Positions 1 through 10,041 of a DNA stretch of 29,441 nt are shown one piece after another (the stretch's first letter is position 1; each line of letters opens with the position of its first letter). A model generated the notes under the pieces. It did not search any database. It saw only the letters and a program-made list of their open reading frames with translations, and was not told where the DNA came from. The position numbers were made by a program, and so were the translations under genes. Location of the stretch: IMG/VR virus record IMGVR_UViG_3300037963_006819, positions 8,872 through 38,312 of that record; one strand, 5' to 3'. This stretch comes from a virus.

Positions 1-473
1 AAGCCGTCACGGCAGTTGTTGGCATTGGGGCTGGTCTTGCTTTGGCATCCAAAATAGATAAGAAAAAATTTAAAACATATGTTTTAGTTGGAGATGGCGA
101 ATGTGATGAGGGTTCCATTTGGGAATCAGCAATGTTTATTGGTCAAAATCAAATTGAAAATCTTTTCATAATTGTCGATAGAAATAGACAATCGGTAACA
201 GAATATATTTCTGAGGAAGATGAGGTAGCATCATTGGAACAAAAATTTCAAGGGTGTGGAATACAGACGGTTACAATAAATGGTCATGATTTTAAAGAGA
301 TATATGATGCATTGTCAAAAGACTATAAAGGACCAGTCGTCGTTATAGCTGATACAGTAAAGGGAAAAGGTGTATCATTCATGGAATCTGGAATTAAATG
401 GCATCACTCAATTCCAGCGGAACAACAATATCAAATTGCCTTAGAAGAACTACAAAAGGTGTTACAAACATGA
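1..473 (+). CDS. Transketolase, N-terminal (TPP-binding) subunit, 5' partial
   Basis: The reading frame is open from base 3 and enters from outside the window, so the true start is not visible. It encodes the C-terminal part of a transketolase N-terminal half. The thiamine-pyrophosphate/Mg binding signature GDGECDEGSIWESA is present, followed by the strand FIIVDRN, and the family's closing segment KGKGVSFMES...WHH is intact. Transketolases move two-carbon units between sugar phosphates and can make sedoheptulose-7-phosphate, the precursor of bacterial heptoses. The stop overlaps the ATG of the C-terminal half (ATGA), so the two halves are translationally coupled and should form one enzyme. 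Split transketolases are common in polysaccharide gene clusters. The family call is firm; the exact substrate is inferred. Confidence 0.9.
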   Translation, partial: AVTAVVGIGAGLALASKIDKKKFKTYVLVGDGECDEGSIWESAMFIGQNQIENLFIIVDRNRQSVTEYISEEDEVASLEQKFQGCGIQTVTINGHDFKEIYDALSKDYKGPVVVIADTVKGKGVSFMESGIKWHHSIPAEQQYQIALEELQKVLQT

Positions 474-1387
474 GTAAAGACATAAGAGATTCGTTTTTTG
501 ATCAAATTTATGAAATGGCACGAAAAGATAAAAATATAATTTTTATATCAGCCGATGCCGATGCTTTTAGTTTAAGGCAGTTTAGAGAAAATTTGCCAGA
601 GCAGTTTATTAACGTAGGTGTAGCTGAACAAAATATGGCTTTAGTTGCAACAGGATTAGCGCTCGAAGGTAAAAGGGTATTTATTTACTCAATTACGTCT
701 TTTATCGCCATGCGTTGCTTTGAGCAACTTAAAGTAAATATTTGTAGCATGGATCTTCCTATAGCCATCGTCGGACTTGGCAGTGGCTATTCTTTTTCTT
801 ATGATGGACCCACACATCACGCAACTCAAGATATTGCTATTATGAGAACTTTACCAGAAGTTACAATTTTAAATCCGTGTGACGAAGCAACGGCTAAACA
901 TGCAGCAACCCATTGTTGTTTAACAAATCACCCAACATATGTTAGAATTGATAAAGGATCGCATGAAAGTTTATATGATAATAATGATTGCGAGACTGGG
1001 ATAAAACAACTTACAAAAAGTTCTAAAATTAAAATTATTAGCACTGGCTATATGACCCATAAGATGAATGAATTGGTACGAGAAATCAATACTGATGTGG
1101 ACGTAATTGATTTATATAAAATAAAACCATTAAACACACAATTATTAAAAAATATTTTAATAGATTCAGAGTTGGTAATAACAGTTGAAGAAAATACGTC
1201 AATTGGAGGCATTGGTTCAATGATGTGTGAAATTTTGGTTGATAATGAAATCACCACAAAACTAAAAAGAGTCAGCCTTGAAGATAAACAAGAATTTTGT
1301 TTTGGATCTAGAGACTGGTTGATAGAAAATGGTGGAATAAAAAAAGAAAATATTGTGGATATAATAAGGAACTTTCATAATGGATAA
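470..1387 (+). CDS. Transketolase, C-terminal subunit
   Basis: This 305-aa protein matches the pyrimidine-binding and C-terminal domains of transketolase/DXS-type enzymes. The catalytic Glu that activates the thiamine ring is E53 in NVGVAEQNM, and the substrate-side histidines are in GPTHHATQDIAIM (H116, H117). The C-terminal domain carries VITVEENTSIGGIG. The start at 470 is chosen because it forms an ATGA overlap with the N-terminal subunit; an upstream in-frame ATG at 398 lies wholly inside that gene and would add 24 unlikely residues. The end overlaps the next gene by 8 bases. It acts in the cytoplasm with the upstream subunit, probably supplying sedoheptulose-7-phosphate to the heptose genes further down the operon (inference). 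Confidence 0.9.
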   Translation: MSKDIRDSFFDQIYEMARKDKNIIFISADADAFSLRQFRENLPEQFINVGVAEQNMALVATGLALEGKRVFIYSITSFIAMRCFEQLKVNICSMDLPIAIVGLGSGYSFSYDGPTHHATQDIAIMRTLPEVTILNPCDEATAKHAATHCCLTNHPTYVRIDKGSHESLYDNNDCETGIKQLTKSSKIKIISTGYMTHKMNELVREINTDVDVIDLYKIKPLNTQLLKNILIDSELVITVEENTSIGGIGSMMCEILVDNEITTKLKRVSLEDKQEFCFGSRDWLIENGGIKKENIVDIIRNFHNG

Positions 1388-2309
1388 AATTTTAACTTTA
1401 GATACATTAGCTCAATCTTTCGGCACTACAGTCGATGATTTAACTGATGAATGTCATGATCTGTTACAGAATATGGATAGTCGATATTATCTTGTTTCTG
1501 GGATAGAAAGAGAAAAATTGATTGCCGATATTTTACACAGAATTGACGATGATAAACAGATCATCGGTGCTCCTGAGCGAACCGATAAGTGGTTTAAGGG
1601 ATGGAAAGAAAATTTAGATGATTTAAGAAATAGTGATTATGATTTAGACTCGTTAATGCCTAAATTTATACGCAAAAATCAGCCTATTAGATTTATGGGA
1701 GATTATATAATCCCAAGTGAATCACACTTTGAACATGTTTATTTTAACATTTTTAGAGCTTGGCTATTTGAAAAATATTTCTCTAAGTATGATACAATTT
1801 ATGACGTTGGATGTGGATCTTCATATAATCTGATTGAACTATGCAGACGATTTCCAGACAAAAAAGTTTATGGATTTGATTTTGTACAATCCTCAGTAGA
1901 CATTGTTAATGATTTATCAAAACATCACGGCTTCAATACAGAGGGTCGTTTGTTTAATATGATTGAGCCAGATTTTGATGTGCAGCTAAATGATAATAGT
2001 GTGTTTTTTACATCTGGTGCAATTGAGCAGATAGCAAGCAAGTTTGATAATTTAATAGACTTTTTATTGGAAAAGAAACCAGACTTAGTTGTGCATATTG
2101 AACCAACCTATGAGGTGTATGATCAAAGTTTGTTATTTGATTATCTCGCTGCAAAGTTTCATCGAAAACGTGGGTATACAATGGGATACTTGCCTGCTCT
2201 TCAAAAATTAGAAGCTGAGGGTAAAATTGAAATTATTAAGATTAAAAGATTAAACTTTGGAAGTTTGTTTATGGAGGGCTTTACAAACATAATCTGGAGA
2301 CCATTGTAA
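1380..2309 (+). CDS. SAM-dependent methyltransferase, class I
   Basis: The 309-aa product has a class I methyltransferase Rossmann core starting near residue 139 with the motif I sequence YDVGCGSSYN and the acidic strand-2 end KVYGFDF. The first ~100 residues are a separate, mostly helical and acidic extension that I do not recognise. Set among nucleotide-sugar genes, it most plausibly O- or C-methylates a sugar or a nucleotide-sugar, but nothing in the sequence shows the acceptor. It overlaps the transketolase gene by 8 bases, and its stop overlaps the next ATG (TAATG), so it belongs to the same transcript. Fold confidence is high; substrate unknown. Confidence 0.75.
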   Translation: MDKILTLDTLAQSFGTTVDDLTDECHDLLQNMDSRYYLVSGIEREKLIADILHRIDDDKQIIGAPERTDKWFKGWKENLDDLRNSDYDLDSLMPKFIRKNQPIRFMGDYIIPSESHFEHVYFNIFRAWLFEKYFSKYDTIYDVGCGSSYNLIELCRRFPDKKVYGFDFVQSSVDIVNDLSKHHGFNTEGRLFNMIEPDFDVQLNDNSVFFTSGAIEQIASKFDNLIDFLLEKKPDLVVHIEPTYEVYDQSLLFDYLAAKFHRKRGYTMGYLPALQKLEAEGKIEIIKIKRLNFGSLFMEGFTNIIWRPL

Positions 2310-3091
2310 TGCTCTTGGGGCTTGAGGGTAAAAATGCAATCATCACTGGAGGAAGTCACGGAATAGGACTGGCGACAGCAAAACTGCTTGCATCAGAAGG
2401 GTGCAATGTTGCACTTTTATCTAGAGATTTAAAAAAATTACAGAAAGCCAAACAACAAATATCTGAGTTTAATGTAAATTGTTTAATTTTTCAAGTTGAT
2501 GTTTTGAACAAAAAACAAATAGAAAATAGTTTTGAACAAATTGCTAAACATTGGAAAGAAATTCATATATTAATTAATAACGTCGGCGGAGGCGGTCGCT
2601 GGGGCATTGATGATTTTGTAAAAAACTCAGATACTGTTTGGCAAGAAGTTTATGATAAAAATTTGACAGCGGCTCTTCGTTATACTAGATTTGTTGTTCC
2701 CTACATGAAGAAACAACAATGGGGAAGAGTTGTAACTGTGACATCAACACTTGGTAGACAAGCTGGCGGAAGAGCCTGGTTTAATGTAGCTAAAACGGCT
2801 CAAACATGTTTAATGAAAAACTTGTCATTGAATAAGGATTTGGTTAGGCATGGCATTACATTTAATAGTGTTTCACCTGGATGCATTATGATACCTAACA
2901 CTGGATGGGAAGATGAAAAGGAAAAGAATCCTGAAGAGTTTAAAAATATGCTTCATCATAAATTTCCTTTGGGAAGAATGGGAGAACCTGAAGAAGTGGC
3001 ATATGCCATTGTTATGTTGTGTTCTGAATCTGCGTCATTAATTAATGGTGCTGCTGTAGCTGTTGATGGTGGAGAAAGTTATGCATTTTGA
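2309..3091 (+). CDS. Classical short-chain dehydrogenase/reductase with Tyr-to-Phe active-site change
   Basis: This 260-aa protein has the full classical SDR layout: the dinucleotide motif TGGSHGIG (residues 13-20), the NNVGG equivalent of NNAG (90-94), the catalytic Ser in VTVTST (S146), and the PG motif SPGCI near the C-terminus. The usual YxxxK reads F158-N-V-A-K162: the codon at 2780-2782 is TTT where TAT would give the catalytic tyrosine. The lysine and serine are kept. It could be a non-redox or altered SDR, or use another acid. It follows the methyltransferase by a TAATG overlap. In this cluster it may act as a keto-reductase or epimerase on a sugar, but the missing Tyr makes that uncertain. 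Confidence 0.85.
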   Translation: MLLGLEGKNAIITGGSHGIGLATAKLLASEGCNVALLSRDLKKLQKAKQQISEFNVNCLIFQVDVLNKKQIENSFEQIAKHWKEIHILINNVGGGGRWGIDDFVKNSDTVWQEVYDKNLTAALRYTRFVVPYMKKQQWGRVVTVTSTLGRQAGGRAWFNVAKTAQTCLMKNLSLNKDLVRHGITFNSVSPGCIMIPNTGWEDEKEKNPEEFKNMLHHKFPLGRMGEPEEVAYAIVMLCSESASLINGAAVAVDGGESYAF

Positions 3092-3152
3092 TAATTTAGA
3101 AGTTAATAGCATGATTGAAAAGTTTAAAAAAATAAAATTGGAGTTAAAATGA
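3081..3152 (+). CDS. Possible 23-aa small ORF bridging two genes
   Basis: An ATG at 3081 lies 6 bases after GGAG (3071-3074) and opens a 23-codon frame, MHFDNLEVNS followed by a lysine-rich tail, ending in a TGA that overlaps the next gene's ATG (ATGA at 3149-3152). Almost every other junction in this operon is an ATGA or TAATG overlap, so this small frame restores coupling across the only gap in the sugar block. It may be a real peptide, a remnant of a lost gene, or chance. No domain is recognisable. Confidence 0.3.
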   Translation: MHFDNLEVNSMIEKFKKIKLELK

Positions 3153-4135
3153 AAAATGTTTTGAATGGTTCAAAGGTATTGGTTACCGGCGGCACAGGTA
3201 TGATTGGTAGATATTTAGTTGATAAATTATTAGACAAAGGCTGTGAAGTTACAGTTGTTTCCTTAGACTCACCTGATGGTTTGCCAAACAATGTCAACTT
3301 TATGAAATTAGATTTAACGGTTTTAGACAATTGTATTAAAGCGTGCAAGGGGCAAGATTATGTATTTAATTTGATAGGCATCAAGGGGTCTCCAAAAATG
3401 TCCAGAGAGCGCCCAGCAAGTTTTATGGTCCCCATGTTGATGTTTAACACAGCCATGATGGAAGCTGCAATGAGGTGCGGTGTTAAGTGGTATTTGTACA
3501 CAAGCTCTGTCGGAGTTTATCATCCAGCAGAAGTGTTTAAGGAAGATGACGTGTGGAATACATTCCCATCAGATAATGATAAACACCCCGGTTGGGCAAA
3601 AAGGATAGGAGAGCTTCAAGCTGACGCATATAAAATACAATATGGAAAAGACAATATTTCAATTGTAAGACCTGCCAATGTTTATGGAAAATGGGACAAT
3701 TTTGATCCAGAAAATGCCATGGTTATACCGTCACTAATTAATAGAATTGTCTCTGGAGAATCACCACTTGTTTGCTGGGGCGATGGCACTCCCATCAGGG
3801 ATTTTATATATGCAGGTGATTGCGCGGACGGTATGATTCACATGGTAGAAAATGGAGTAACAGACCCAGTTAATTTAGGTAGCGGTGATGGTGTATCAAT
3901 AAAAGATGTTGCAGAATCTATTAGAAACTGTTATAATAAAGATATAAAGATTGAGTGGGACACTAGCAAACCAAAAGGGGATGCACGTCGTCTCATGGAC
4001 ACTACTCGGGCTCAATCACATGGATTTAAATGTTCAACAAGTTTACAAGATGGAATTCAAGAAACATTAGAGTGGTTTTTGAGCAATCAAGAATTATACA
4101 AAAAAAGAAACAACTATTTTACTCAGGAAGGCTGA
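3149..4135 (+). CDS. NAD(P)-dependent nucleotide-sugar epimerase/reductase (extended SDR)
   Basis: The 328-aa product has the extended-SDR nucleotide-binding motif TGGTGMIG (13-20), the Ser strand YTSSVGVY (S119/S120), the substrate strand VRPANVYG and the C-terminal WGDGTPIRDFIYAGD typical of GDP-fucose-synthase/UDP-galactose-epimerase relatives. The expected YxxxK reads P147-G-W-A-K151, so the tyrosine four residues before the lysine is absent. The start has a good Shine-Dalgarno GGAG at 3140-3143. The stop overlaps the next ATG. In the operon it sits beside the cupin epimerase and the 4,6-dehydratase, the usual trio for making a deoxy-sugar, so it is a candidate 4-reductase or epimerase on a nucleotide-heptose (inference). 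Confidence 0.85.
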   Translation: MKNVLNGSKVLVTGGTGMIGRYLVDKLLDKGCEVTVVSLDSPDGLPNNVNFMKLDLTVLDNCIKACKGQDYVFNLIGIKGSPKMSRERPASFMVPMLMFNTAMMEAAMRCGVKWYLYTSSVGVYHPAEVFKEDDVWNTFPSDNDKHPGWAKRIGELQADAYKIQYGKDNISIVRPANVYGKWDNFDPENAMVIPSLINRIVSGESPLVCWGDGTPIRDFIYAGDCADGMIHMVENGVTDPVNLGSGDGVSIKDVAESIRNCYNKDIKIEWDTSKPKGDARRLMDTTRAQSHGFKCSTSLQDGIQETLEWFLSNQELYKKRNNYFTQEG

Positions 4136-4647
4136 TGCAGGTTACAGATACTAAATTACATGGTGTTAAATTAATTATACCAGATAGGTTCGAAGATCAT
4201 CGTGGAACATATATGGAAATTTATGATTCTAAAAATTTTGCAACAATAACAGATGAAGTTTTTGTACAAGATGATATTTCTATATCAAACAGGGGTGTTT
4301 TGAGAGGATTACACGGCGATTGGCAAACTACAAAAATTGTAACAGTTCTTAATGGAACAGGATACGCTGTTATAGCAGACAATCGCCCTTCCTCCCCCAC
4401 ATATAAACAGTGGCAATCTTTTACACTAAGCAAACTGAATAAACACATGTTATTACTTCCAGCAGGTATTGGCAATTCAATTCTTGCTTTAGAAGATAAC
4501 ATGATATATTATTATAAGCAGAATACACACTTTATTGATGGACAACAATTTACTATCAAATGGGATGACCCTGAGTGGAATTTTTGGTGGCCAATTAAAA
4601 ACCCCATCTTATCCATGAGAGATGAAAGAGGGGATTATGTCAAATAA
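4135..4647 (+). CDS. RmlC-type cupin nucleotide-sugar 3- or 3,5-epimerase
   Basis: This 170-aa protein follows the dTDP-4-dehydrorhamnose 3,5-epimerase (RmlC) pattern: the DHRG loop, the catalytic His in RGLH (H60), the aromatic patch IYYYK where the catalytic Tyr lies, and the closing WDDPEWNFWWP. The second conserved His region (AHGF or GNxH in relatives) reads GIGNSILAL, with Ile116 at the usual His site. Such cupins epimerise C3 and/or C5 of 4-keto nucleotide sugars made by a 4,6-dehydratase, which is encoded by the next gene. The start at 4135 overlaps the preceding stop (TGATG); an earlier in-frame ATG at 4030 is inside the upstream gene and has no RmlC-like sequence. Confidence 0.85.
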   Translation: MQVTDTKLHGVKLIIPDRFEDHRGTYMEIYDSKNFATITDEVFVQDDISISNRGVLRGLHGDWQTTKIVTVLNGTGYAVIADNRPSSPTYKQWQSFTLSKLNKHMLLLPAGIGNSILALEDNMIYYYKQNTHFIDGQQFTIKWDDPEWNFWWPIKNPILSMRDERGDYVK

Positions 4648-5650
4648 AAAATGTTTAATTACTGGCTTTACTGGAATGGTCGGCTCTCATCTAGCTGACT
4701 TTTTACTTGAGGAAACAGATTGGGATGTCTACGGATTGTTAAGGTGGAATGATAGAACAGATAATATTGAGCATTTAATGTCCAAAATTAACAACAAAGA
4801 AAGAGTCTTTTTGGAATATGGTGACATTAATGATTTAAGCTCTATGTTACATGTTTTTGAAAAAGTGAATCCTGATTATGTTTTTCACCTTGCAGCACAA
4901 AGTTATCCAAAAACAAGTTTTGATTCCCCTTTAGAAACATTAGAAACAAATATATTGGGTACAGCCAAAGTCTTAGATTCAATTAAAAAATTAAAACAAA
5001 ATCCAATTGTGCATGTCTGTGCATCATCAGAAGTATTCGGGCGTGTGCCTAAAGAGTTTTTACCGATTCATGAAGACGTAACCTTTCACCCTGCCTCTCC
5101 ATACGCTATTTCAAAAGTAGGCACTGATTTGGTAGGTCGATTTTATGCTGAAGCATATGGAATAACGGTAATGACAACAAGGATGTTTACGCACACTGGT
5201 CCGAGACGAGGCGATGTATTCGCAGAATCTACGTTTGCAAAACAGATTGCAATGATAGAGGCTGGTTTACAAGAACCGATTATCAAGGTTGGGAATCTAG
5301 ACTCATTGAGAACTTGGTCAGATGTCCGCGATGCTGTAAGGGCATATTATATGCTTGTTACTGTAAATCCAATCCCTGGAGAATATTATAATATTGGAGG
5401 AACATTCTCCTGCTCAGTTAGGGACATGTTAACACACTTACTGTCCCTGTCTACTCGTAAAGACATTAGTATTGAAACAGATCCAGATAGACTTAGACCG
5501 ATAGATGCTGACTTGCAAGTACCGGATACTTTAAAATTTAAAAACCACACTGGATGGGAGCCACAAATTAGTTTTGAAACAACAATGCAGGATTTATTAG
5601 ATTATTGGCGACTACAAGTGGGTAGCGGTAAAAACTTTTTAATTAGATAA
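4637..5650 (+). CDS. GDP-mannose 4,6-dehydratase-family enzyme
   Basis: The 337-aa product is an extended SDR of the GDP-mannose 4,6-dehydratase type. It shows the NADP motif TGFTGMVGSH (9-18), VFHLAAQSY, the active-site CASSEVFG (S130, S131, E132) and the intact SPYAISK with Y156 and K160, then RMFTHTGPRRG and the DVRDAVRAYY segment. These enzymes make a 4-keto-6-deoxy sugar nucleotide. Relatives act on GDP-heptose as well as GDP-mannose; here the neighbouring heptose kinase and nucleotidyltransferase suggest a heptose substrate (inference). The start at 4637 is preferred over the in-frame ATG at 4622 because the purine-rich AGAGGGG (4627-4633) is a fitting ribosome-binding site. It overlaps the cupin gene by 11 bases. 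Confidence 0.88.
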   Translation: MSNKKCLITGFTGMVGSHLADFLLEETDWDVYGLLRWNDRTDNIEHLMSKINNKERVFLEYGDINDLSSMLHVFEKVNPDYVFHLAAQSYPKTSFDSPLETLETNILGTAKVLDSIKKLKQNPIVHVCASSEVFGRVPKEFLPIHEDVTFHPASPYAISKVGTDLVGRFYAEAYGITVMTTRMFTHTGPRRGDVFAESTFAKQIAMIEAGLQEPIIKVGNLDSLRTWSDVRDAVRAYYMLVTVNPIPGEYYNIGGTFSCSVRDMLTHLLSLSTRKDISIETDPDRLRPIDADLQVPDTLKFKNHTGWEPQISFETTMQDLLDYWRLQVGSGKNFLIR

Positions 5651-5657
5651 ATTTATT

Positions 5658-6386
5658 ATGATTTTAATTATTGGAGAAAGTTGTTTAGATGTATTTCACT
5701 ATGGGGAGTGCCTTAGATTATGTCCAGAAGCACCTGTGCCTGTTTTTAAATCAATTAGAACGAGCGAAAACGGTGGTATGGCTATGAATGTTTATCAAAA
5801 TGTGCTACAAATGGGTTCTCCCGCAGAAATTATAACAAACAATAATTGGAAATTTATTAAAAAAACTAGATTTGTTGAAGAAAAATCAAACCACATGTTT
5901 ATGAGACTTGATGAAAATGAAAATGATTATGGACATTTAAATATCGACAATTTAAATTTAGAAAAATATAGTGCTATAATTGTCTCTGATTATAACAAGG
6001 GCTTTTTATCTACTAAAAATTTAAAAAAAATATCTGCTAGCCATCCATTAACTTTTCTTGATACTAAAAAAATATTAGGCGATTGGAGCAAAGAATTTAC
6101 ATATATTAAGATTAATGGACCAGAATTTGAAAGAACAAAGCACACTATAAATAAAGATTTATACAAAAAATTAATTATAACTCAAGGACCAAAAGGTTCA
6201 ACCCATATGGATAAAAGATATCCCGTTCCATTAGTTGAGGTTAAAGATGTATCTGGAGCAGGAGATACCTTCATATCAGCCTTGTGTTGCCGATATCTTA
6301 AATCACATAATATTGAAGAATCAATATTATTTGCAAATAAATGTGCCACAACTGTGGTACAAAAACGAGGCGTATCTACAATATGA
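5658..6386 (+). CDS. rfaE1: RfaE domain I-type (HldA-like) heptose-phosphate kinase, PfkB family
   Basis: The 242-aa product matches the kinase half of HldE/RfaE: IIGESCLDVFHYG, RLCPEAPVPVF (20-30), GGMAMNV (39-45), TRFVEEKSNHMFMRLDENE, IIVSDYNKGFL and DVSGAGDT with the catalytic Asp at D203. The family phosphorylates D-glycero-D-manno-heptose-7-phosphate at C1. It is about 75 residues shorter than a typical HldE kinase domain; much of the loss lies between residues 55 and 70, where the lid and inter-domain segment would be. The ATP site and catalytic base are complete. There is no clear Shine-Dalgarno. The stop overlaps the glycosyltransferase start (ATGA). Together with the gene at 9004 it reconstitutes both halves of HldE as separate proteins. 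Confidence 0.85.
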   Translation: MILIIGESCLDVFHYGECLRLCPEAPVPVFKSIRTSENGGMAMNVYQNVLQMGSPAEIITNNNWKFIKKTRFVEEKSNHMFMRLDENENDYGHLNIDNLNLEKYSAIIVSDYNKGFLSTKNLKKISASHPLTFLDTKKILGDWSKEFTYIKINGPEFERTKHTINKDLYKKLIITQGPKGSTHMDKRYPVPLVEVKDVSGAGDTFISALCCRYLKSHNIEESILFANKCATTVVQKRGVSTI

Positions 6387-7351
6387 CAAAAACTAAATTA
6401 TATATCTACCCACAAGCAAAGCCACACGAACATGATACAAATTCGGCTGGCATGAGTGAGCATTTAAAAAATACAGTTCCTTTAAGCCAAAAGGGTATAC
6501 GCGAACATTGTATTGTTACTTCACCCGATGCAGCCGATTATTTTTATATGGGGCAGTTTGCACAAGATACTGGAGAAATTTTAAAAATAGGACCAGATAG
6601 TTTTGAACATTTTAATGGAAATGAAAACAGACATATTTTAGATATTGATGGTGAAGGTGGATTTGAAGCTTCAAACCGACCGCGTATTCCTGATTGGTTG
6701 CGCGGAAGCATAATTACAGCAAATGGAACGTTAAAAAAAGATCAAGATATAGAAAAATTATTTACCAGACCAACCTTTTCCCATTTGTTGATTGATATAG
6801 TTAACAATAAAAACGAAACTTTTGAATTTACAGAAGAAAAGAGTTTTGGATTTCGTGGAATGGTAAATTGTACCACAAGAGCACTTATGCTGTATACGTT
6901 GCACAACATGCCAGACGTTAAAAAAGATTTGAAAATTAACACTCATTGGCAAGGCTTATCAGAAATTGGATCCAATACACAAAAAGAATTTGTAGAGCAC
7001 ATGTTACGAAATTCACTTTCATTATGCCCTCGTGGCTCGGGCATTGACAGTGTGCGATTTTTAGAAACTTGTTATTTTAATAGAGTGCCAATTGTAATAT
7101 CTGATCATGATTATTTTTTATTTGGTGAAGATCTTCATGATACTTCTTTTTGTTATCGCATTTTTAAAGGCGATATGAAGCCTTCTGATTTACACGAGAA
7201 ATTAACACAGATATATGATACGCCAATTGAAGAACTAAAAAATCGAGCAAAATTAGCAAAAATATATTTTGATCAAGTGGTTAGAAGTTATTTTGACGAC
7301 CCGACATTATATTTCTTAAATTGGTTAGAGGTAAAAAATGAAAGAAAGTGA
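6383..7351 (+). CDS. Exostosin-family (GT47-like) glycosyltransferase
   Basis: The 322-aa product carries the exostosin C-terminal signature: SLCPRGSGIDSVRFLETCYF (211-232) followed by NRVPIVISDHDYF. In this family the Arg/Glu of RFLE contacts the sugar nucleotide. The N-terminal half, with LYIYPQAK, is a weaker GT-B-like domain. No membrane segment or signal peptide is visible, so it should be cytoplasmic. The start at 6383 is chosen for the ATGA overlap with the kinase stop; an ATG 42 bases upstream lies inside the kinase gene. It is the only clear glycosyltransferase in the window and is the natural candidate to attach the cluster's sugar to a host glycan, a virion protein or DNA (acceptor not visible). 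Confidence 0.75.
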   Translation: MTKTKLYIYPQAKPHEHDTNSAGMSEHLKNTVPLSQKGIREHCIVTSPDAADYFYMGQFAQDTGEILKIGPDSFEHFNGNENRHILDIDGEGGFEASNRPRIPDWLRGSIITANGTLKKDQDIEKLFTRPTFSHLLIDIVNNKNETFEFTEEKSFGFRGMVNCTTRALMLYTLHNMPDVKKDLKINTHWQGLSEIGSNTQKEFVEHMLRNSLSLCPRGSGIDSVRFLETCYFNRVPIVISDHDYFLFGEDLHDTSFCYRIFKGDMKPSDLHEKLTQIYDTPIEELKNRAKLAKIYFDQVVRSYFDDPTLYFLNWLEVKNERK

Positions 7352-8513
7352 TATTTTTAATCCGAAAGCAAAGGTTTTGGCAAATGTTGATCGTGTAATT
7401 GAACACATTGAAACAGGATGTACAAGTCCAGTGCTTATTGAGGTTGATCCAAGCAATGCCTGTAATCATGCATGTAGCTTTTGTTTGTCAGCATATATTC
7501 ATTTTGATAAATATAAAGGCACAGAAGCATTTTCAAGAGCGTTGATGTCAAGAGATGTTTTAATGAACTTGTGCAAAGATTTTGTAGACATGGGAGTAAG
7601 GGCGGTAAACTGGACAGGGGGTGGAGAACCAACTCTTAATAGGCATTTAAAAGAAGCAATTGAATATTGTGGTTCAAATGGCATTAAAATGGGTATGTTC
7701 ACTAATGGCACCTTATTTGACAAATGGGACATGTTTGAGACTCTAGTGAACAATATGACTTGGGTTAGAATATCAGTTGATGCTGGAACTAAAGAAACCT
7801 ACGATGGTGTAAGAAAAGCAAAAGGACAACAAAATTGGGACAAAATGGTTTCCAATTTATCAAAACTTATTGATACTAATAAAAGGTTAGGCAACAAAAT
7901 TGATATTGGTGTTGGATATGTCATATCTCCAGACACATATGAAGAAATAGTAGAGTTTGCTGAATTTTTTAAAGATTACGATTTAACATACTGTCAGTAT
8001 AAGCCAGAAATTATCATTAGAGAAAAGGGTGGGCAACAAAGAGATCTCGAATTCTGGACAGAAAAAGTAAATCCTTTACTCAATAAAGCAAAAGAAATAT
8101 TAGGAAATAAGTTTCAGGTTAATGGATATAAATTTGAAGACTTAGCAATGGATCGAGATAAATTTGGACGCAACTATGAAATGTGTTTAGGATCTCAACT
8201 ATCTCCTTGTATTGGTGCTGATGGGCATGTATATGTGTGTACAAATCATCGTGGCTGGAAACAGTACAGTTATGGAAATTTATATGATAAATCTTTTGCA
8301 GAGATTTGGAATGATGTTACAAAAAGAAAACAAGTCATGAGGCAAATTGAAAAAGTTGAGTGTTTCAAAAACTGCACCAAGCTTTGCAAACCACATGAAA
8401 GCAATAAGGCAATGTGGGAAATATATAAAAACTTCGATGATAAGACAAAAAATGAACTTTTGGAACAACAAGAAGTAATCAAAAGGAAGCTTAAGCACCC
8501 GGAGTTTATATGA
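7338..8513 (+). CDS. Radical SAM enzyme with SPASM-like C-terminal cysteines
   Basis: This 391-aa protein has the radical SAM cluster motif C42-N-H-A-C46-S-F-C49, the SAM-binding TGGGEPTLN (93-101) and the barrel strands MFTNGTL and VRISVDAG. Near the C-terminus are six cysteines (C283, C291, C301, C342, C346, C350) in the arrangement of a SPASM or twitch auxiliary cluster, with the typical GNLYDKSFAEIWN segment. Such enzymes include sugar epimerases/dehydratases and peptide-modifying enzymes. Here all neighbours are sugar genes, so a radical step on a sugar or nucleotide-sugar is the likeliest role, but the substrate cannot be read from the sequence. It overlaps the glycosyltransferase by 14 bases and the next gene by ATGA. 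Confidence 0.85.
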   Translation: MKESDIFNPKAKVLANVDRVIEHIETGCTSPVLIEVDPSNACNHACSFCLSAYIHFDKYKGTEAFSRALMSRDVLMNLCKDFVDMGVRAVNWTGGGEPTLNRHLKEAIEYCGSNGIKMGMFTNGTLFDKWDMFETLVNNMTWVRISVDAGTKETYDGVRKAKGQQNWDKMVSNLSKLIDTNKRLGNKIDIGVGYVISPDTYEEIVEFAEFFKDYDLTYCQYKPEIIIREKGGQQRDLEFWTEKVNPLLNKAKEILGNKFQVNGYKFEDLAMDRDKFGRNYEMCLGSQLSPCIGADGHVYVCTNHRGWKQYSYGNLYDKSFAEIWNDVTKRKQVMRQIEKVECFKNCTKLCKPHESNKAMWEIYKNFDDKTKNELLEQQEVIKRKLKHPEFI

Positions 8514-9007
8514 CGCAATTGGTCAATGGAAGGGGTCAATTAGGGGAAATATTAAAAAAAAAGATTAAATCGATAAATGTTGATAGAAATACATTGATTT
8601 ATCACACTTGGAATATAGATGATAAATCTGAAGACACACAATACAAAGAATATCAAAAATTCACTAGTTTTGTGAAAGGGCATCAAGATAAAAGGATTAT
8701 TTTTATATCAACTAAAACTCAAAAAGACGATTTTTATGTTAAATACAAACAGATGGCTGAGGCTTTTTTAATTGAAAATTGTCATAATTGTTTGGTTTTA
8801 AAATTTCCAACTTTAATAGGTAAGGGCGTCATAAGAAACTTTAAAACAAAAAAACAACTACCCTATGGTATAATGGAAATCATGTCTTTAAAAAAATGTG
8901 CGGCTCTGATAATCGATAATCTGAATTTTAACGGTGAAAGAAAAATTCTGTATTTTAATGGAGAAACTGTATCAGCAGAATTAGTTTATGAGTTAGTGAA
9001 CATATGA
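8510..9007 (+). CDS. Miniature NAD(P)-binding SDR-like protein
   Basis: The 165-aa product looks like a shrunken extended SDR of the RmlD/epimerase type. The N-terminus has a compact glycine motif NGRGQLG instead of the usual GxxGxxG with flanking strand. The strand IIFISTKT corresponds to the Ser strand, DDFYVKYKQMAEAF carries a Y-x-x-x-K pair, and KFPTLIGKG resembles the substrate strand R-P-x-x-x-x-G. The usual length for this family is about 280-340 aa, so roughly half is missing, mainly from the nucleotide-binding half and the C-terminal substrate lid. The frame is intact and coupled on both sides (ATGA), so it is maintained. It may work with a partner SDR from the same operon (inference). 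Confidence 0.55.
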   Translation: MTQLVNGRGQLGEILKKKIKSINVDRNTLIYHTWNIDDKSEDTQYKEYQKFTSFVKGHQDKRIIFISTKTQKDDFYVKYKQMAEAFLIENCHNCLVLKFPTLIGKGVIRNFKTKKQLPYGIMEIMSLKKCAALIIDNLNFNGERKILYFNGETVSAELVYELVNI

Positions 9008-9390
9008 AAGTTATTTTTACAAATGGTTGTTTTGATGTGATTCACCGTGGACATGTTGAGCTTTTAAAGTATTGTCGTCAAGCCGGTGACCGTGTTATAA
9101 TTGGGCTAAATAGCGACAAAAGTGTAAAGGCTTTAAAAGGGGAAAACAGACCTTATAACTCTGAGCATGATAGGAAGTTTATCTTAGAATCGTTAAAATA
9201 CGTTGATGAGGTTTATATATTTGATGATCCCACACCTTATAATCTGATACAAGAAATAAAACCTGACTTAATTGTAAAAGGCGGAGATTATAAGCCAGAA
9301 AATGTAGTAGGCAACGATTTGTGTGATGTTGAAATTTTTAATTTTATTAATGGATATTCTACAACTATAACTTTGGATAAAATGAAATGA
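9004..9390 (+). CDS. rfaE2: RfaE domain II-type (HldC-like) heptose-1-phosphate nucleotidyltransferase
   Basis: This 128-aa protein is a close fit to the cytidylyltransferase-fold half of HldE. It has TNGCFDVIHRGH with the H14-x-x-H17 nucleotide motif, IGLNSDKSVKALKGENRP, the D-R in EHDRKFILESL, and VKGGDYKPENVVG. The length is right for a stand-alone domain. The family transfers AMP from ATP to heptose-1-phosphate to give ADP-heptose; relatives that use other NTPs exist, so the base is not certain. It is flanked by ATGA overlaps with the mini-SDR and the phosphatase. With the kinase at 5658 and the phosphatase at 9387 it makes the activation steps of an NDP-heptose route. Confidence 0.9.
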   Translation: MKVIFTNGCFDVIHRGHVELLKYCRQAGDRVIIGLNSDKSVKALKGENRPYNSEHDRKFILESLKYVDEVYIFDDPTPYNLIQEIKPDLIVKGGDYKPENVVGNDLCDVEIFNFINGYSTTITLDKMK

Positions 9391-9716
9391 CTTATGTTTT
9401 TGATATTGATGGCACACTTTGTACAAATACTAATGGTGACTATTTAAAAGCAGAGCCAATATATGATAGAATAGAACTAGTTAATATCTTGGCAAAAACG
9501 AATAAAATTGTACTTTACACCGCACGAGGTATGGGTAGGCACAATAACGATGCACAAAAAGCAATTGCAGAGTTTTATGATTTAACCAAAAAACAGCTTG
9601 AAGCTTGGGGAGTGCAATATGATGAGTTATTTCTGGGAAAGCCAGCAGGCGATTATTATATAGATGATAAGGGTATTAGAGATGCAGAATTCTTTAATTA
9701 TGAATTATGTCCCTAA
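9387..9716 (+). CDS. HAD phosphatase of the capsule EcbF/BcbF type
   Basis: The 109-aa product begins with the HAD catalytic motif FDIDGTLCT (nucleophile D6, acid D8), continues with IVLYTARGMG (motif II Thr) and ends with GKPAGDYYIDDK, which supplies the motif III Lys and the paired acidic residues. This compact cap-less form is typical of the EcbF/BcbF family seen in capsule clusters. In the present context it could remove the 7-phosphate from heptose-1,7-bisphosphate, the step done by GmhB in other bacteria (inference; it is not a GmhB sequence). It overlaps the upstream gene by ATGA and the following cupin by a few codons. Confidence 0.8.
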   Translation: MTYVFDIDGTLCTNTNGDYLKAEPIYDRIELVNILAKTNKIVLYTARGMGRHNNDAQKAIAEFYDLTKKQLEAWGVQYDELFLGKPAGDYYIDDKGIRDAEFFNYELCP

Positions 9717-10041
9717 AGGATGGGGATTTGAAAAATGGATTGTAAACTGTGATGAGTATTGTGGAAAGTTACTTTACTTTGTCAAGGGCAAAAGGTGTTC
9801 TTGGCACTATCACAAGTTGAAAGACGAAGTTTTCTATATTCAATCCGGCAAGATGTTGGTGAAATATTCCGATGAGGATGATATTGATGACGCCAAAGAG
9901 GTAATATTGGAAAAGGGTGACAATTTTCATGTGTACCGAGGTTTACGGCATCAAATGATTGCCCTACAAGATACAGAACTATTTGAGTTTTCAACTCAAC
10001 ACTTTGATAGCGATAGCTATAGAATACAAAAAGGAGATTAA
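9700..10041 (+). CDS. Single-domain cupin, sugar-isomerase-like
   Basis: This 113-aa protein has a complete cupin motif 1 between residues 30 and 50, G(x5)H36-x-H38(x4)E43(x6)G, and a weaker motif 2 in KGDNFHVYRGLRH. These are the metal ligands of the mannose-6-phosphate-isomerase-like cupins often found next to nucleotide-sugar genes. The N-terminus PKGWGFEKWIV resembles the usual start of this family, which is why I prefer the ATG at 9700; in-frame ATGs at 9664 and 9682 would add 12 or 6 residues inside the phosphatase gene. It is the last gene of the sugar operon. The role may be isomerisation or epimerisation of a sugar phosphate, but this is not settled by the sequence. Confidence 0.65.
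   Translation: MNYVPKGWGFEKWIVNCDEYCGKLLYFVKGKRCSWHYHKLKDEVFYIQSGKMLVKYSDEDDIDDAKEVILEKGDNFHVYRGLRHQMIALQDTELFEFSTQHFDSDSYRIQKGD

Follow-up and report, generated by a model that had tools for sequence, protein, structure and literature searches.

How does a phage that carries genes for activating a heptose come by the heptose phosphate on which those enzymes would act? The question is raised by an IMG/VR virus record (IMGVR_UViG_3300037963_006819) of 38,312 bases, of which bases 8872-38312 (29,441 nucleotides, hereafter the window) were analyzed. Positions 1-10041 of the window hold an operon of sugar genes, which the original prediction interpreted as an almost complete pathway to a modified nucleoside diphosphate (NDP)-heptose with only the isomerase GmhA missing. 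The gene list behind it is right in all essentials: the genes named are open, co-directional and mostly overlapping, and Pfam and NCBIfam support nearly every assignment. GmhA is indeed absent from the window, but to call it the only missing enzyme may be the wrong reading, since a cupin that had not been listed (9700-10041, plus strand like every gene of the operon; about 112 amino acids; T4-GC 307, phrog_7851) is a good candidate for its step. Together with a short kinase (5658-6386), a nucleotidyltransferase (9004-9390) and a HAD phosphatase (9387-9716), the cupin forms a four-gene module common to more than 100 other marine phages examined. We propose, tentatively and with a probability set somewhat short of even, that this protein isomerizes sedoheptulose-7-phosphate as a new kind of enzyme, carried mostly by phages and not orthologous to the GmhA that it replaces, and that many marine phages thereby encode all four steps to ADP-heptose.

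The module is first of all a matter of gene linkage. Searched with the cupin profile, viral contigs gave at least 572 confirmed relatives, and among the best 80 of these, 68 also have the kinase, the nucleotidyltransferase and the HAD phosphatase within 10 kb. When neighborhoods were counted without preset families, the cupin was found at 98 loci, the kinase at 86, and the nucleotidyltransferase and the HAD phosphatase at 85 each, as well as a lumped family of short-chain dehydrogenases/reductases (SDRs) at 86, which takes in three SDRs of this operon; the remaining families occur at 44 loci or fewer, and those at 34-44 represent genes that follow the module in a single phage lineage, the sigma factor among them. 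Within the module, conservation is highest for the cupin. Across 123 module loci, or 117 once duplicates are removed, with cupins that fall into 80 clusters at 90% identity, the four genes appear in 13 orders and always on the same strand, and the HAD and cupin genes overlap or sit within 50 bp of each other at 109. When loci were selected by the kinase instead, the cupin was present in 38 of the 40 with both nucleotidyltransferase and HAD phosphatase versus 2 of the 29 with neither. A first viral scan from a single kinase sequence had found no relatives. As originally predicted, the HldA-like and HldC-like enzymes and the HAD phosphatase form one linked unit.

The family assignments of these three enzymes differ in strength. 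The kinase (242 amino acids; T4-GC 305), which resembles HldA or RfaE domain I, scores 260 bits against phrog_8133, has D-beta-D-heptose 7-phosphate kinase (HldA, 4e84) as its closest solved relative, and retains the RfaE-type PEAPVP motif (in the form CPEAPVPV) and the catalytic GAGD motif. Against TIGR02198 it reaches 116.5 bits, under the cut-off of 345, and it is about 70 residues short of that family's 315. The nucleotidyltransferase (128 amino acids; T4-GC 304, phrog_7878), similar to HldC or RfaE domain II, scores 159 bits against TIGR02199, slightly under the cut-off of 181.5, and this is its best single-domain model by about 100 bits. Placement of the two enzymes in the RfaE families is supported by their motifs and by the nucleotidyltransferase's best family, whereas neither score reaches its curated cut-off. 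The motif FINGYSTT of the nucleotidyltransferase matches (F/L)xxGxSTT, given in PMC11573728 as the heptose nucleotidyltransferase motif, with tyrosine replacing the arginine that marks the promiscuous STTR5 type at position 5. Lack of this arginine suggests, although it does not prove, that the product is ADP-heptose rather than CDP- or UDP-heptose, and a pathway ending in either of the latter was set aside on this ground. From sequence, we have good confidence in a putative heptose-7-phosphate 1-kinase and equally in a predicted HldC-like enzyme of the ADP-heptose type.

The capless HAD phosphatase (109 amino acids; T4-GC 306, phrog_1238) was predicted to be of EcbF/BcbF type, which its relatives in the PDB by profile search, 9iqw ("capsule biosynthesis protein") and 1xpj, support, and which its weak score against TIGR01689 (46.4 bits, cut-off 162) does not. 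Its motifs DIDGT, TAR, GKP..D and DDK are kept in 11 phage relatives, and a phmmer search with E. coli GmhB as the query found no match in the window. In a few phages the nucleotidyltransferase and the HAD phosphatase are one fused protein. These fusions, the gene linkage and the step left open by the other enzymes suggest, with fair confidence, that it acts as the 7-phosphatase in GmhB's place. The label "phosphoheptose isomerase" attached to T4-GC 306/phrog_1238 is a misnomer; being a HAD phosphatase, this protein cannot supply the isomerase step.

What, then, could supply it? The phage cupin family phrog_7851 carries the name cysteine dioxygenase, and Pfam assigns the cupin to generic cupin models only. 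The protein is 62-71% identical to copies in isolate phages. Its H35, H37, K40, E42 and H83 are invariant in 26 aligned sequences, and the pattern HxHxxKxE(x6)G is present in 143 of 143 sequences, the C-terminal histidine being invariant in the 26 aligned. It has the HxH...E...H metal site of cupin aldose-ketose isomerases. Profile matches in the PDB include L-ribose and D-lyxose isomerases, as well as other cupins, at about 20% identity, and in the alignment L-ribose isomerase 5avp shows the same HxHx2KxE(x6)G spacing and the lysine. An AlphaFold2 model of the cupin (pLDDT 95) matches the folds of CapF, KdgF, the single-domain phosphomannose isomerase 7zvm (TMt 0.84) and D-lyxose isomerase. 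Phosphomannose isomerase converts fructose-6-phosphate to mannose-6-phosphate, and GmhA carries out the equivalent conversion on a sugar with one more carbon. Cupins of the RmlC, FdtA and CapF kinds, on the other hand, require an NDP-keto sugar and hence a 4,6-dehydratase; strong matches to the GDP-mannose 4,6-dehydratase (GMD) family occur at only 17 of 105 module loci, which counts in favor of an isomerase.

Few close relatives turned up outside phages. Scanning prokaryotes with the cupin profile, a pattern scan that detects close relatives only, yielded 11 contigs, all from metagenome-assembled genomes (MAGs); the phage-type kinase is also present on 8 of these and all four module genes on 7, so that most are probably of viral origin. 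Among 398 genomes of one phylum, there was one close match, on a MAG contig, and one intermediate match, beside a tRNA synthetase on a 3.9-kb contig, while the distant cupins found in the same search are type-II phosphomannose-isomerase-like or fused to NeuB. In one bacterial cluster (L265, 6605-11488), a protein that by eye resembles sialic acid synthase bears a C-terminal cupin and is accompanied by an acetolactate-synthase-like enzyme and by a phage-type HAD fused to an SDR.

GmhA itself is missing where it might be expected. No gene of the SIS/GmhA kind was detected in the whole 38,312-base record, including the 8.9 kb upstream of the window where a check had been proposed, and GmhA was not found in 8 complete module-carrying cyanophage genomes. 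In 50 long viral contigs no GmhA/SIS match exceeded the cut-off; three weak matches fell under it, one of them a genuine SIS gene whose locus lacks kinase, nucleotidyltransferase and HAD phosphatase. On one viral contig (L106, G022), a cupin stands with no other module gene found nearby, and an SIS protein of the contig adjoins an aminotransferase, an SDR and, as judged by eye, a dehydroquinate-synthase-type protein. Conversely, the cupin occurs at 0 of 49 viral GmhA loci, where the GHMP kinase HddA is present in 17, an arrangement seen in Caulobacter phage Cr30, and a PfkB heptose kinase in 2. One MAG contig (L103) holds both the cupin module and a separate GmhA-HddA set. As for the hosts, cyanobacterial lipopolysaccharide (LPS) is reported to be without heptose (PMC4390846), and the gmhA model has no match in the control Synechococcus elongatus, so that some hosts may have no GmhA.

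The four genes can be fitted one to one to the four steps from sedoheptulose-7-phosphate to ADP-heptose with the cupin replacing GmhA, a correspondence to which we give an even chance. In this scheme, the cupin would isomerize sedoheptulose-7-phosphate to manno-heptose-7-phosphate, the short HldA-like kinase would, from its family, form the 1,7-bisphosphate, the HAD phosphatase would take off the 7-phosphate as GmhB does, and the HldC-like nucleotidyltransferase, again from its family, would yield ADP-heptose. Many cyanophages would add a 6-epimerase: T4-GC 308, whose best NCBIfam match by far is the ADP-heptose 6-epimerase model TIGR02197 (HldD-like), is linked (>150 bits) at 23 of 105 module loci versus 0 of 27 loci with only the kinase, and its frequency as a cyanophage partner points to ADP-heptose. 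No such epimerase is present in this record, and T4-GC 308 has no match in the window.

Several observations weigh against this assignment, and some of them speak for other explanations. The best fold matches of the cupin, CapF and KdgF, are not aldose-ketose isomerases, and cupin folds serve so many reactions that fold alone proves nothing. The kinase, nucleotidyltransferase and HAD phosphatase all score under curated cut-offs, and the catalytic roles of the cupin, the HAD phosphatase and the short kinase are predictions only. In addition, the p value of the contrast among kinase-selected loci (~1e-14) ignores relatedness among viral loci and is a guide only. Cupin is lacking from 9 of 108 loci with the short kinase and the nucleotidyltransferase, and the 595-kb phage LR756511 encodes a fused kinase-nucleotidyltransferase protein with neither cupin nor SIS found; in such cases the host perhaps supplies the isomerase. 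One may argue from these cases, and from the variety of cupin chemistry, that host GmhA generally provides the heptose-7-phosphate from which the phage makes ADP-heptose, and that the cupin would, for example, epimerize or tailor the heptose. We consider this unlikely, though far from negligible, because the cupin accompanies the other three genes at 38 of 40 loci and because the reported lack of heptose in cyanobacterial LPS and the unmatched gmhA model in S. elongatus speak against a host source.

The substrate might also be another sugar phosphate, for example one of seven or six carbons, in which case the cupin would be a phosphomannose-isomerase-like entry enzyme and the "heptose" names an inherited annotation. 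About 28 of 80 kinase-selected loci hold the short kinase without nucleotidyltransferase, HAD phosphatase or cupin, which suggests that this kinase, lacking some 70 residues, may use another substrate, and the bacterial relatives of the cupin include type-II phosphomannose-isomerase-like proteins; the sub-threshold scores of the three other enzymes fit here as well. Nevertheless, the RfaE-type motifs kept in the kinase and the nucleotidyltransferase, together with the HldD-like 6-epimerase as a frequent extra member in cyanophages, make a different sugar decidedly improbable in our view. The least probable account, which we hold to be very unlikely, is that of the original prediction, in which the whole operon is one pathway: transketolase would make the sedoheptulose-7-phosphate, and the GMD, RmlC and SDR enzymes would turn the product into a 6-deoxy or epimerized heptose like that of the Campylobacter capsule. 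These enzymes do share the operon, and a comparable trio in C. jejuni, DdahA, DdahB/MlghB and DdahC/MlghC, modifies GDP-heptose (PMC7949155), so by analogy the GMD-, RmlC- and GDP-fucose-synthase-like (Fcl-like) enzymes may in principle modify a heptose here. However, the C. jejuni trio acts on GDP sugars, whereas the transferase of this operon is of the ADP-heptose type. Moreover, GMD-like genes occur at 17 of 105 module loci versus 5 of 27 kinase-only loci and RmlC-like genes at 28 of 105 versus 12 of 27, and neither the Fcl-like enzymes nor either half of the transketolase is found more often where the module is present than where it is absent. As none of these sugar enzymes is enriched, a modified heptose is not supported, and transketolase, at 8-13 of 105 module loci, is excluded as a module member by co-occurrence. 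We regard the operon's remaining sugar enzymes as cargo distinct from the module, which can be exchanged and varies between phages.

Phage heptose genes are already known in kind, and the module is found here in another phage lineage. Sullivan et al. (2010) pointed out that distant cyanophages repeatedly share T4-GC 304, 305, 307 and 308 as a group, raised the question of whether these genes have a function or are "stuffer DNA", and treated them as LPS genes that might be linked but whose function was unproven (PMC3037559). Other listings are of rfaE in pelagimyophages (PMC7029224) and, for a Synechococcus phage, of heptose genes (PMC7378029). The cyanophage T4-GC 304-308 cluster of P-SSM2, S-SM2 and S-SSM7 contains kinase, nucleotidyltransferase, HAD phosphatase and cupin genes of these four families, which are likewise linked and run in one direction; it differs from the present record, which is without T4-GC 308 and has GT47, radical SAM and miniature SDR genes inserted between kinase and nucleotidyltransferase. 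According to the summaries of Tang et al. (2024), virus-encoded heptose biosynthetic enzymes make ADP-heptose (PMC11461863, PMC11573728), the phosphatase is stated to be absent in viruses (PMC11461863), and the purpose of viral manno-heptose synthesis is named as an unsolved question (PMC11573728); a cupin isomerase was not seen in either summary. No report of a cupin sedoheptulose isomerase was found in the openly searchable literature, and what appears to be new is a testable reading of the module cupin as an isomerase.

Relative to the bacterial ADP-heptose pathway of GmhA, HldE and GmhB (with HldD), the four expected activities are matched here by a kinase and a nucleotidyltransferase of the HldE domain families, the former shorter and not fused to the latter, by a HAD phosphatase of a different, capless type, and by a cupin that by linkage stands in GmhA's place. 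Type-II phosphomannose, L-ribose and D-lyxose isomerases have, like this protein, a cupin metal site, with identical spacing in L-ribose isomerase 5avp, and a similar fold, and an analogous ketose-to-aldose reaction is proposed for it; it differs from these enzymes in being only about 20% identical, a single small domain, and of predicted activity. A single-domain type-II phosphomannose isomerase has been reported from cyanophage S-SCSM1, where it is described as a mannose enzyme (PMC9602691).

The fate of the heptose may be sought in the surroundings of the module. Variable glycosyltransferases nearby would probably, on weak indications, put it on a host-surface glycan or on virion proteins. 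In P-SSM2, S-CAM3, S-SSM7 and Sf-FS3 the module lies among tail-fiber or neck genes, and this context, together with the reported lack of heptose in cyanobacterial LPS, makes glycosylation of the virion no less possible than modification of the host surface. Should the cupin prove to be the isomerase, marine phages would themselves encode every step to ADP-heptose, with an isomerase that differs from that of bacteria. The phages, including those of cyanobacteria whose LPS is reportedly heptose-free, would then place on the host surface or on their own virions a sugar that the host does not have. The one-to-one fit of four linked genes to four steps makes the functional-or-stuffer question of 2010 simply testable.

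The rest of the operon reads as follows. It opens with the N-terminal subunit of a transketolase (1-473, PF00456), truncated by the window start and complete at 8505-9344 of the record, followed by the C-terminal subunit (470-1387; PF02779, PF02780), a methyltransferase-like protein (1380-2309; PF13847, marginal), a FabG-like SDR (2309-3091; PF13561) and the Fcl-like SDR (3149-4135; NF047922, 164 bits, cut-off 500). An RmlC-type 3,5-epimerase (4138-4647; PF00908; TIGR01221, 132 bits, cut-off 155.75) and a GMD-like 4,6-dehydratase (4622-5650; PF16363; TIGR01472, 184 bits, cut-off 415) precede the kinase. Between kinase and nucleotidyltransferase lie an exostosin/GT47-like glycosyltransferase (6383-7351), weakly assigned by PF03016 at 26 bits, below the cut-off, a radical SAM/SPASM enzyme (7338-8513; PF04055, PF13186) and the miniature SDR of 165 amino acids (8510-9007). 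The last was assigned by AlphaFold2 (pLDDT 88.8) and Foldseek, whose top matches are sugar-nucleotide SDRs, among them WbmG, GDP-fucose synthase and RmlD, and it has homologs at five other loci (L015, L023, L031, L046 and L080); in four related phages (L015, L023, L046 and L080) it co-occurs with the radical SAM/SPASM enzyme (7338-9007 here). That it might be a shortened HldD/T4-GC 308 was rejected, as there is no BLASTP similarity and it forms a small SDR family of its own.

Downstream of the operon, a late sigma factor, gp25 and a baseplate wedge protein indicate a tailed phage with a contractile-type tail. The wedge protein shares only about 30% identity with its counterparts in Microcystis phage Mel-JY01 and Flavobacterium phage immuto, and no T4-like marine cyanophage is among its listed matches. 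As a scaffold, the record is interrupted by stretches of N at about 4740 and 8868, and the window begins just past the second. This join is probably true, since PanB and the module stand together on the related contig 3300029319_009117 (L015, L269).

The upstream 8.9 kb encode PanB, an acetolactate-synthase-like enzyme, a split E1-type thiamine diphosphate (TPP) enzyme, an SDR and glycosyltransferases. PanB, which scores over its cut-off, adjoins the acetolactate-synthase-like TPP enzyme (record positions 5920-8500, L003). Close PanB relatives are present on 84 viral contigs, the acetolactate-synthase-like gene at 80 of 81 PanB loci (this record included), and a family of about 430 amino acids, of which the tested member is a DegT aminotransferase, at 67 of the 81; some 20 PanB loci have heptose-module genes nearby. 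No further pantothenate genes were recognized in the record, and PanB with the acetolactate-synthase-like enzyme looks like a separate sugar cassette. The E1-type enzyme (4780-5910 of the record) is very short and split into 195 and 177 amino acids; in S-SM2 and P-TIM68 a fused relative of about 380-400 amino acids has a zinc alcohol dehydrogenase and the kinase as neighbors, and such an enzyme neighbors the kinase at 14 of the 27 loci without nucleotidyltransferase, HAD phosphatase and cupin. Finally, a stretch of MW495066.1 (255360-272160, L014), a record named Microcystis phage MaAM05, carries panB, panC, sufBCDS and pxpA and looks bacterial, a case for caution with phage record collections.

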